DNA of 64,000 nucleotides. Origin: Cystobasidiopsis lactophilus. Taxonomy: Eukaryota > Basidiomycota > Agaricostilbomycetes > Agaricostilbales > Chionosphaeraceae. Below the pieces are notes generated by a model. The model had not been told where the DNA came from and made no database searches. It worked only from the letters and a program-made list of their open reading frames with translations. The position numbers and the translations under genes were made by a program. Positions 4,556-49,005 of the stretch are shown in pieces. Each line of letters opens with the position of its first letter. The first letter of the stretch is position 1. The DNA lies in contig BCIO01000006.1 of NCBI GenBank assembly GCA_001599975.1, forward strand, positions 429,587-493,586, in the 5' to 3' direction.

Positions 4556-4835
4556 CCCTCCCTACCTTTTGGCCTGTACCCTTTGCGCTCCCGCTGTCTC
4601 TCTATAACTTTGAACCATACAATCGCAATGCATTTGGAAAGGAGTATGCAGGAACAACAAAGCCCAGCTCTTTGGTGGATTAAAGTCCCAAAAAAGTTCG
4701 TGCGCAAAAGCATTTTGTTCCTTTGCAAAATAAAAGACGTATGGAGGAGCAAGAAGACTAAAGAACAATGAGTGTGTGGTGGTGTGTGCAAAAGCTCTTG
4801 TTCGCTCTAATTACCTGTTCAAGTGAGCGAGAGCT

Positions 4836-6184
<1,349 letters not shown>

Positions 6185-44867: not shown

Positions 44868-46508
44868 TTACTTGTAGTATTCGCCCTTGAAACCAGGGAT
44901 GATCGTTGCGCCTTCCTTCTGCTTGTGGGTGCCGGAGCTCTGTTGCCACTTTTGCTTCTTGTAGGTGAACTGCAGGCCAAGTTCAAAACTTGTTCCATAT
45001 ACGGGAGGAGTTTGGCTTACGTCCAACATCGTGGGCACGGGGTTCCCGCTGGCCTCGATTTGGTTCTGAACGAACCCTTCGCGTTGGAGAACCGGAGAGT
45101 CCTGAATAGTGCTGAGAACCAGATCGTTTCTGGGACGGGCAAACTAGATCTTGGTGTCAGCAAAGCGAGTCCGTCGAAGAAGAGGTAGCTTACATAGAGC
45201 AGGCCAAGGCGGTGAAGGTGGCGCTGATCCTTGGGCGGAAGAGAGACACGATGGATCGTGCTCTTGATGTAGCCGCCCGTGAGCAAGCTGAACGCGTCAC
45301 AGGTGCTGCATGCGTGGCTTCAGACGAACTCCTCGGTGCTCCAAAGGATCAGTGCACTCACTTGACGGTCAGCGTAGCATCGACGGGCTTGGCCCATTTC
45401 CACTCTCCGGTAACGTTGTCCTTGATCTGAACACAAAGAAAGTTAGAAACATAGCAAGCTAGATCTGGCTGGCCCAAGAGCGCCTCACCTGGAGAGCGGC
45501 AACAGGCTGGCGGAAGAGCAACGTGATCGTGCCAAGATCAGTGTGTCCCTGGGCGTAGAGGCCCTCAGGAACCTCCTTGGCTTCCTGGTCGTTGTAGGGA
45601 GAGTAGCGCATGTAGCGGAGGTGGTCCTCGGACTTGTCCTCATAGCGGTGCCGGGAGGTGAAGTAGTCCTCGGGGAGCTCCAAGGCCCTGGCGAAGAGGA
45701 CAAACAAGGGATCAAGGACCTTGCTATGCAGACTGTCCCTCCATAATGTCAGACTGCGCTCCTTTGAATTGGGAAGGCCATGAACTCACTCTTCGGCGAA
45801 GGCTTGGATCTCGCCAATGTTGTCTTTGATCAACTTGGGCTGAGCCCACTCGTAGTCGGGGTGGTTAGACTTGGGCAGGTTGTAGACCTCGACCCTGTAG
45901 ATGATGAAGCATTCAGGAGATGCTCGCGACCCTCGCGCAAAGCCAACGTACTTGTCCTTCAAGCCAGTCTTTTCATTGATGACACGGAGGCCAGCTGGAC
46001 GGTAGCCGTTGTATTGGCCATTCTCAAGGTCGGGCTTGTGCTTGAGCTTCTCCTCCAGTGGAAGATCGTAAAAGGCCTGGCCAAGCTCGAACTGCCTGTC
46101 GACCCTCTCTTGGGCAATCTGCAAAGATTTGCCACAATAATGAGCCTGTTGCCGATCACGCTGCCGAGAGCACGTGCAAGTCGGCAAGGAAACACAAAAC
46201 TCACGTCGAACCCTTTGACATAGAGGAATCCCTTGGTGCGGACCTGATCACCATGACAAGCAGGCATTAGACAAGATGCGAACGACGCGAGCAAACCCAC
46301 CGAGTTGATCAAGATTTCGGCCTGCTCTGCTCTGCCTTCTTCGGTTCCCAGCCTTCACCGATTGCTCAGCCTTCGCGCCTGGATTGCCGTCCTGATTCGT
46401 TTGAGCTCACTTGGAAAGGTCCACAGTGGGAAGCTCGGCCCAGTCGAGCGGCTCCTTGGTGAGCGGGACGTCTTGGTAGCGGGTCGCTGCTTTTTGGATG
46501 GCTGGCAT
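44868..46508 (-). CDS. 2-oxoglutarate/Fe(II)-dependent dioxygenase (IPNS-like)
   Basis: Start at the ATG at 46508 (MPAIQKAATRYQDVPLT), stop at 44868 after KGEYYK. N-terminal DIOX_N segment: LPTVDLSK, GFLYVKGFD, LPLEEKLKHKPDLENGQYNG and YRPAGLRV. Core: the iron motif HTDLGTITLLFRQPVAALQ (His-x-Asp) and the distal His in IKSTIHRV, followed by an Arg for 2-oxoglutarate. Then DSPVLQREGFVQNQIEASGN and a basic C-terminus. This is the isopenicillin-N-synthase/flavonol-synthase-type superfamily, with many oxidative functions, so the substrate is unknown. It is divergent from a Dal5-type permease at 46891, which may import or export a linked compound. Confidence 0.87.
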
Positions 46509-46890
46509 CTTGCTTCTGCGGCTGTTGCGAGAGAAGACAAAGAGTTTAAGAGAGCTCCTTTGCGTGCTCCTTTTGGCGCTGACTACTAAGGTGGCCACGA
46601 GTCATGCCCGGGTCAATGCTATTGAGCAAGGAAATTAGGCCATTGCACCATCCTGGTGGGGATTCGCCATATCTGCCCCTGCCGTCGTGCCCGCGAGCGG
46701 GCTAACTACTCAGCAAGAATAAAGTAATGGCGCCTTCTTCTGTTCGGAGCTCGCTATCTTATTGCCACGCCCGCTACGATTCTTCCGGCTACTAAAAACA
46801 ACCTGCTTGGCTTCTACTACTACTTGCTGCTTCATCCCTCTTGTCCCTGTACCCACATCCTGACCGCTCAAGCCTTCGGAAGTTCGCACA
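46509..46890. promoter_or_regulatory. Shared divergent promoter, dioxygenase and MFS permease
   Basis: 382 bp between divergent starts. No confirmed factor site. A short pyrimidine-rich run precedes the permease ATG. Confidence 0.4.
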
Positions 46891-49005
46891 ATGCTCAAGA
46901 ACGCCCGCCTTCGTTACCCTGTTGTCGATGTTCTAGTGGATGTGTTCGACTGGTAAGAGTCAACTGCTTTTTTCCTTGACGAGCTCTCTCAAAGAACCCC
47001 TCAGGTATCCCTCGCATTACTCCCCTGCCGAACGAAAGCTACTCCGAAAGCTAGACTTCTCCATTCTGTGCTTCACCTCCCTGAGCTGTGAGTGTTCTAT
47101 CGCTTGCACTTCGCTGGGCGTATGATGCCCACGCAGAGTCCCAGTCTTTTGTAAATACCTCGACCAGTCCAACTTGACCAATGCATACGTAAGTGGAGAA
47201 TGGATCAACCCACACTTCGTGTCAAGTTGACTGTTGTCCAGGTCGGTGGAGAGCACATCAAACCACACTCCCTGTCAGACTGACTGTTCTACAGGTCTCC
47301 GGCATGAAAGAAGCGCTGGGCCTGTACGGCAACGAGTTGAATTACTTGAATAGTTTTTATTATGGAGCCTGTGCGGACCCCTTTCCACAACTTTGCTTTC
47401 TGCCTATTGACTGATTTGCCTTCTTGTTACAAGACATTCTCGGCCAATGGCCATTAGTGATGCTTTTATCAAGAAAAAATTTTGCGCCATACTTGCTGCC
47501 AGCTCTCGAGATCGTCTGGTCGGTCCTGACGTTTTGCGAAAGCTCCGTCACCAACGTCAAGCAGCTCTATGCCTTGCGTGCCTTGATAGGCTTCTTCGAA
47601 GCCCCGAGTGTAGGGCGGCTTGCATCTTGGGTCAAAGACGGGCTAATTTCTTGGCGCAGTTCGCTGGCACGCATTTCGTCTTGGGCAGCTGGTACAGGAA
47701 GGAAGAGCTGTTCAAGAGGGCAGGCGTTTGGTTTATGGGCAACAGCCTGGGATCCATGTTCTCGGGGTACCTGCAGGCAGCGGCCTACAAGAATCTGGAC
47801 GGCGTGGCTGGCCGAGCCGGTTGGCAGTGGCTGTGAGAACGGATTCCCTTCCTGATGAGGCTGTTCTTGACGCATAAAGCTTTAAAAGATTTCTGATCGA
47901 CGGCGTCATCACTCTGGTAAGTTGAGCTTTGAGATGTTCCCTTCGTAAGTCAAGCTCATCGCGCTCGTCACAGCCAATTGCCTTTGTTGGCTTCCTCCTA
48001 TTCCCTGGCCTTCCCAGCTCTCGCAAGCCCTGGTATCTGTCCAAGGAAGAGCACACACTGGCCACGACCAGAATGCCACCGAGCCACAAGCAGGCTAGCC
48101 CCCTTAACCTGGATGTTGTTCGGCGCGCCCTGAAGAACCCACTGTTCGGCTTATCCATCATCCTTTACATCTTTCTCATTCAAATGAGCTACTGGGCCTC
48201 CTACATGACCCTGTGGCTGAAGGCCACCAAGCACTATTCTGTCGTCCAGGTCAGCTTTATTGGCTGCCAATTTTAGCTCATGCTCACTGCATCTGCCAGA
48301 TTAACGTGTACCCAACTTTTCTCAATCTGCTCTCCGCTTTTTCCTCCTGGTTCTTCACAACCATCGCGCAGTCCGTCTCTATCCCAATCCTGTACACCTT
48401 CATCTGCACGCTATCGCTGTTCGGTGCCATCGTTCTCACCATCTGGAACGTCCCCACTGCCCTCACTTTCGTGGCGTTCTACATTGGCGGCGGCCTCGGC
48501 ATTGGTGCTGTCTCGCCCATCCTCTACAGCTACGTGAACGTGATCTTCCGAAACGACCCCGAAGTTCGCGCTCTGACGGTGTCCAGTATGATGGTGTGTA
48601 ACATTGTCCTCAACGAGAACAGGTGCTGATAGCACTTCCAGACATTTGGATACACTAGCCTAGTTGTGATGTGAGTTTGCATACCGTGGTATGCCAGAGC
48701 CGCGCTGAGCCCACACTCACACATTCTGCAGCCCCATTTTCACCTTCCCTACCAAAGAGGCGCCGTCATTTCCCAAGGGCTACCCAACAAGTCTTGCCTT
48801 CACCGTCGCCCTCTGGGCGCTCTTTATGGTGACGATCCACATCGGTCGGCGACAATACGATTCGTATAACGAGGTGGGCAGCGCTACTTCGACAGTCGTC
48901 GAGAGCGAATCCCCGGTTCAGAAGGGCAAAGACAAATTCGATGAGGAAAGCGACAGCGCTGTATTGCCACCGCCTCTGGTGTTCGCTCCGGCGGCGCAGC
49001 CATAA
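46891..49005 (+). CDS. Dal5/Tna1-type MFS anion or vitamin permease
   Basis: Start at the ATG at 46891 ([20 protein letters not shown]), stop at 49003-49005. Joined exons read [94 protein letters not shown] and WQWLFLIDG, the standard N-terminal half of the allantoate permease (ACS-like) family. The second half has [38 protein letters not shown] and a charged C-terminal tail. Twelve membrane spans are expected. Yeast members carry allantoate (Dal5), nicotinate (Tna1), pantothenate (Fen2) or biotin (Vht1). Intron 3 is a tandem duplicate of two full introns (separate entry). Confidence 0.88.
47189..47294 (+). repeat. Tandem duplicated intron inside the MFS gene
   Basis: Two adjacent 53-nt units, 47189-47241 and 47242-47294, each starting with GT and ending with CAG. 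By manual alignment 39 of 53 positions agree (about 74%). The upstream exon ends in NLTNAY and the downstream exon begins VSGMKEA, and the family reading is unbroken only if both units are removed. Unit 2 alone as an exon would shift the frame (53 nt). Confidence 0.85.

Follow-up and report, generated by a model that had tools for sequence, protein, structure and literature searches.

A 53-nucleotide intron duplicated in tandem, with a predicted zero-length exon, in a transporter gene of the basidiomycete Cystobasidiopsis lactophilus

Among the known systems close to the one considered here are the stwintrons of ascomycetes, in which two U2-type intron units share one position in a gene and are removed by consecutive splicing (PMC7138796, PMC8469720, as far as these accounts are drawn on here). 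Their removal is explained, in the portions of the literature used, by intron definition, such that the smallest intron or the nearest donor-acceptor pair is taken first, and for one complex intron of Lipomyces starkeyi, excision in one step and excision in two are described as coexisting (PMC7138796). Here we describe two U2-type units at one position in a gene for a transporter of the major facilitator superfamily (MFS) of Cystobasidiopsis lactophilus, found in a stretch of 64,000 nucleotides (nt) of contig BCIO01000006.1 (positions 429,587 to 493,586 of the forward strand; hereafter the window, with positions counted from its first letter). The first unit, U1 (47189-47241, + strand), and the second, U2 (47242-47294, + strand), are 53 nt each, resemble each other throughout their length, and abut head to tail, so that the exon between them has zero length. 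By its sequence, each is a complete intron.

The arrangement differs from that of stwintrons in its geometry. As stwintrons are described in these sources, the inner unit is nested, interrupting an element of the outer unit or lying just inside it, whereas the present units stand side by side: U1 runs to 47241 and U2 follows from 47242, no internal intron splits a donor, branch element or acceptor (the definition of a stwintron sensu stricto), and the units are adjacent, not nested for inside-out excision (the definition sensu lato). The two routes reported for L. starkeyi yield mRNAs that are 6 nt apart, whereas here every route would yield the same mRNA, and the Lipomyces units are not, in the parts of that report drawn on, presented as copies of one another over their full length, the proposal there being a duplication of 4-7 nt at the donor (PMC7138796). 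A second likeness is to the ratchet points of Drosophila, which according to the portions of PMC8605326 used here have a juxtaposed AG|GT and are removed stepwise with regeneration of the donor; the same juxtaposition, TCCAG|GTCGGT, stands at 47241/47242. Ratchet points, however, are found in long introns and depend on a cryptic exon, whereas the present pair is a duplication and measures 106 nt in all. If removal in two steps (discussed below) is right, the pair would work like recursive splicing in miniature.

Duplication also figures in models of intron origin. The classical tandem-duplication model, in outline, has an exonic segment containing AGGT duplicated to give a new intron (PMC3443670, PMC4974935), and the multiplication of introns is explicitly set apart from their creation (PMC4974935). 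Intron gain by tandem duplication (PMC3443670, PMC4974935, PMC2891723, each as excerpted) shares with our locus an AG beside a GT at the junction and a coding sequence that can stay unchanged, but there an exon, or an exon with part of an intron, is duplicated, whereas here an existing intron was copied in place. Because no exon has been duplicated and the two units, both intronic throughout, occupy a single position, the pair is, to judge by its sequence, not an intron creation by the Rogers model. A sequence-only reading of this DNA had stated that duplication models predict this form, which is right only in part: such models do involve tandem duplication, but the classical one makes introns from exonic segments and, in the passages used, does not specifically predict the multiplication of an existing intron (PMC3443670, PMC4974935).

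Further cases are TOUCH3 and other segmental duplications, in which, as here, a whole intron is multiplied in tandem; in TOUCH3, by the account in PMC4974935, the flanking exon sequence on each side was copied along with it, whereas none was here. The paired introns of a synthetic yeast library, so far as its description was available, are separated by an exon, in contrast to the present pair. For Zymoseptoria tritici, intron duplications that do not involve introners, tandem ones within a gene included, are put at <1% of single intron gains in the excerpted report (PMC4457414). Among open-licence articles in PubMed Central (PMC), judged by title and the start of the abstract, we found no account of a nuclear gene in which a whole intron is exactly duplicated in tandem around a zero-length exon; the search did not extend to subscription journals or preprints. 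Besides the synthetic yeast library, the articles that it brought up included ones on a mitogenome, on snoRNA host genes, on group I introns and on intron retention, and a review on cancer.

That an intron has been duplicated here is supported by the alignment of the two units. Head to tail and without gaps, U1 and U2 are identical at 39 of 53 positions (73.6%), and they differ by 8 transitions and 6 transversions; the earlier description of two 53-nt units, each with its own GT and CAG ends and about 74% identical, is thus exact. When all 64 kb were scanned for self-matches at periods of 30-150, 27 windows of 53 nt reached at least 36/53, and all of these overlap, lie at this locus and have a period of 53. 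Among the 161 predicted introns of no more than 80 nt, U1 and U2 form the best of 12,880 pairs, with a score of 25.0 against 19.5 for the next. With the ends anchored and 53 columns compared, the 12,561 pairs of the 159 other introns have a mean of 18.0 identities (standard deviation 3.2) and a maximum of 31, compared with 39 for U1 and U2. Two significantly similar complete units therefore stand head to tail, and the locus is a tandem duplication of a whole intron; the similarity that the sequence-only reading had left for a computed alignment to establish is significant. Tandem Repeats Finder (minimum score 30) and a repeat search of 46800-47700 did not list the pair, and both can overlook an array of two copies at 74%. 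Folded as RNA, the 106 nt do not stand out (z 0.31).

The gene that carries the pair (46891-49005, + strand) is predicted to encode a 504-residue protein resembling D-galactonate transporters, on the combined grounds of the gene model and of Pfam, TIGRFAM and PDB matches. Its protein matches MFS_1 of Pfam (E 5e-30) and TIGR00893 (E 4.6e-33; 114.7 bits, below the curated cut-off of 395), and its nearest solved structure is the D-galactonate transporter PDB 6e9n (E 4.8e-10); a third PDB match, at E 0.053, was not accepted as a relative. We take the fungal members of this group to be permeases of the allantoate/nicotinate type. Excision of 47189-47294 together with nine other introns of 48-63 nt gives the frame of 504 residues, in which the upstream exon (47145-47188, + strand; supported by the gene model and by the alignment described below), ending in ...DQSNLTNAY, is joined to the downstream exon (47295-47370, + strand), starting with GTC TCC GGC (VSG), at a junction NAY|VSG. 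Retention of U1, of U2 or of both leads to a stop at codon 77, which bears out the earlier statement that both units must go if the permease frame is to be kept. Among the other introns, that at 48594-48641 introduces two stops when it is left in the model.

Further support for the joint comes from a relative of the gene. In a search of genome contigs the pattern matched 17 stretches, one of which encoded a relative, and a search of viral contigs found none; beyond this gene, related sequences were met with only as PDB chains, those of the D-galactonate transporter. The relative (NYXK01000225.1, 13999-18771) has 53% identity to the transporter in the best segment and lies on a contig filed as a deltaproteobacterial metagenome-assembled genome; because its gene has two short GT-AG introns (54 and 47 nt, within the part spliced), it is most likely fungal, and the contig is probably eukaryotic contamination of a bacterial bin. 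The alignment of the two proteins is ungapped from KYLDQ to KEALG, with the NNAYVSAMKE of the relative continuous across the U1/U2 site, at which it has no intron, a single comparison that does not separate gain from loss. The preceding intron has the same position and the same phase (phase 1) in both genes. In the match to the D-galactonate transporter, a gap of one residue falls exactly at the junction, and this match supports the removal of the whole stretch, not the exact joint.

Genes and introns of the window were predicted with a finder that was self-trained on its 64 kb and that allowed zero-length exons. Run without an intron penalty it returned one gene with 829 introns; the penalty of -8.5 used thereafter was chosen by hand, for which reason the finder's scores for length and parse are given little weight here. 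Its output was 22 genes with 176 introns, a total to which U1 and U2 contribute two, at a median length of 58 nt, the picture being that of fungal nuclear DNA with compact, intron-rich genes at a G+C content of 53-61% per 4-kb window. It was checked on one other gene, the predicted iron-sulfur subunit of succinate dehydrogenase (SDH; eight introns), whose model and PDB 1yq3_B can be aligned over residues 43-281 of 283 with just one gap, of one residue; two of the remaining 20 gene models had Pfam matches. Lengths of 50-63 nt are found in 125 of the 174 other introns and lengths of 45-70 nt in 149, while 11 are 100 nt or longer, all unverified predictions and in our judgement finder errors in part. 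The finder parses the stretch in question as two 53-nt introns. When it was rescored, with U1 and U2 excluded from the donor, acceptor and length models, the two-intron parse received 4.4 log units (3.1 with the regenerated donor) and the one-intron parse 0.35.

All six splice elements of the pair, taken as sequences, fall inside the range of the 174 other introns, against which the following percentiles are given. U1 (GTAAGT...TCCAG) starts with the outer donor GTAAGT (47189-47194, preceded by TAC; percentile 0.60), carries a branch-like GTTGACT (47226-47232; 0.13) and has no CTNA motif, and ends in the inner acceptor CAG (47239-47241; 0.80). U2 (GTCGGT...TACAG) starts with the inner donor GTCGGT (47242-47247), at percentile 0.28 behind CAG and, once U1 is removed and the donor is joined behind TAC (TAC|GTCGGT), at 0.12, which is low but in range; it carries a branch-like ACTGACT (47279-47285; 0.32) and ends in the outer acceptor CAG (47292-47294; 0.97). 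Donors in this window are loose in general: the 176 predicted introns include 14 with GTGCGC, 11 with GTACGT, 10 with GTGCGT and 8 with GTTCGT, alongside 23 with GTGAGT and 21 with GTGAGC.

We consider it probable, though with confidence little above even, that a 53-nt intron underwent a single precise tandem duplication at the DNA level and that the product is now removed as two introns of 53 nt. Since most introns of this genome are 50-63 nt long, each unit would be recognised as an intron of its own, and the two would be taken out successively, in either order, with the AG|GT contact serving as a zero-length exon as it does in recursive splicing. Removal in two steps is taken as the main route because intron definition is described, for stwintrons, as pairing the nearest donor and acceptor first (PMC7138796); excision of all 106 nt, by pairing of the outer donor with the outer acceptor, would be a probable second route. 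As the sequence-only reading had suggested, both ways of removal appear possible, and it follows from the sequence that U1 before U2, U2 before U1 and 106 nt at once should all give an identical mRNA. Such equivalence would explain why the duplication has been tolerated, harm arising from incomplete removal only, through the frameshift and the stop at codon 77.

The strongest alternative, which we regard as distinctly less probable yet far from negligible, accepts the same tandem duplication but holds that the 106 nt now behave as one ordinary intron, excised in one step, and that the inner sites are decaying relics. Introns of 106 nt are easily handled by spliceosomes. The outer donor GTAAGT, the outer branch CTGAC and the outer acceptor all outscore their inner counterparts, and TTGAC as the sole branch motif is rare. 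On the other side, 106 nt lies in the tail of the length distribution, with 11 of 174 introns at 100 nt or more, and a closer acceptor and branch, both complete, would have to be skipped. Simulations of neutral decay at the observed divergence speak to both readings: the three inner elements all remained above the 5th percentile in 25-28% of runs, as one-step splicing would allow, but all three matched or exceeded their observed quality in just 7-14%.

A number of points tell against removal in two steps, or against the support claimed for it. The weaker donor (GTCGGT) and the weaker branch (TTGAC) are both the inner ones, which is the pattern that relaxed selection under one-step splicing would produce; the branch region contains CTNA in 158 of the 174 other introns, and TTGAC without CTNA, as in U1, in only 4. 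Because neutral decay keeps the inner elements functional in a quarter or more of runs (the 25-28% given above), their survival is compatible with the one-step route. The advantage of the two-intron parse rests on the hand-set intron penalty and the length prior; the 174 introns of the reference set were themselves predicted by that finder, and U1 and U2 belonged to the training set of the matrix by which branch sites were placed in them. The support for the exact joint AY|VSG comes from the relative on NYXK01000225.1 only, and this sole homologous gene found is intronless at the site; no orthologue that carries the intron, and no single-copy ancestor in a sister species, has been seen. For retained use of the inner sites the balance of evidence is close, and two-step removal would be preferred to one-step removal only modestly.

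How the duplication may have arisen is suggested by the bases at its ends. To gain exactly one intron length, the breaks must fall at the two splice sites or at positions equivalent to these by rotation. The intron starts with GTA, U2 with GTC and the downstream exon with GTC, the GT being common to all three; U2 has at +3 the same C that stands third in that exon, from which it may be derived. This short repeat, GT or GTC, is the likely point of joining: exchange or slippage between its copy at the intron start and that at the start of the downstream exon would add one intron length and no exon base, and the two units would afterwards have diverged to 74%. Among the other introns, 15 of 174 have a GT right downstream, 3 of them with AG|GT on both sides; a downstream exon led by GT is thus a minority configuration in the window. 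A broader proposal, which we put forward tentatively and with somewhat less than even confidence, is that the locus is a natural zero-length-exon pair of very short introns with interchangeable splicing routes to one product, and that a downstream GT primes exact self-duplication through GT/GT microhomology. If true, there would be a general silent path to the lengthening of introns, to stwintrons and, where sequence intervenes at the inner AG|GT, to new exons.

It is improbable that the second copy instead came from RNA, by an excised intron that was reverse-spliced beside its own site and copied back (intron transposition). Such an origin would account for a copy that is exact at both splice sites, with exon bases neither gained nor lost, but slippage of DNA at GT/GT is equally exact, the C at +3 of U2 fits the GTC of the exon (though one mutation would suffice), similar copies are absent from the other 159 short introns in the window, and the support for intron transposition in general is indirect only, at least as presented in PMC3443670. 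More improbable still is an introner-like element inserted twice, with both units drawn from a mobile family: compared with the 159 other introns of up to 80 nt, U1 and U2 score at best 12 and 11, where unrelated pairs reach 19.5 and the two units score 25 with each other, and among those 159 predicted introns of the window there are no introner-like copies at other gene positions. Chance resemblance of unrelated stretches within an intron that was always 106 nt long is a very poor explanation, since donor, branch and acceptor motifs are indeed common to short introns but 39/53 far exceeds the maximum of 31 in the 12,561 other end-aligned pairs, and the self-match is the sole one of its kind in the window at periods of 30-150.

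The pair would offer a natural test case for the handling of two complete, abutting introns of about 50 nt under intron definition, and it would illustrate a route at the DNA level by which introns could multiply or lengthen without altering the protein. With one locus in one genome, and with whole-intron multiplication as such already known, it appears to be a tidy but small example of intron multiplication.

A fainter resemblance is seen just upstream of the pair, where the upstream exon closes with 19 nt (47170-47188) that agree in 11 positions, at an offset of 53, with the 19 nt at the end of U1 (47223-47241). None of 171 other exon/intron ends reaches 11/19, a count that depends on a 19-nt cut chosen post hoc; over 44 nt there are 17 matches, equalled by 2.9% of the 171. 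The likeness hints weakly at a third, older repeat, or may be chance.

An Rfam scan of the window at gathering thresholds gave no match, and the window contains no tRNA. The divergent neighbour of the transporter gene (44868-46508, - strand) encodes a 2-oxoglutarate/Fe(II) dioxygenase, with matches to DIOX_N (E 4e-16) and 2OG-FeII_Oxy (E 1.4e-7), and the two genes may share a pathway. Farther away in the window, at 4811-6184 (- strand), lies the gene for the mitochondrial SDH iron-sulfur subunit, whose eight introns are all short.
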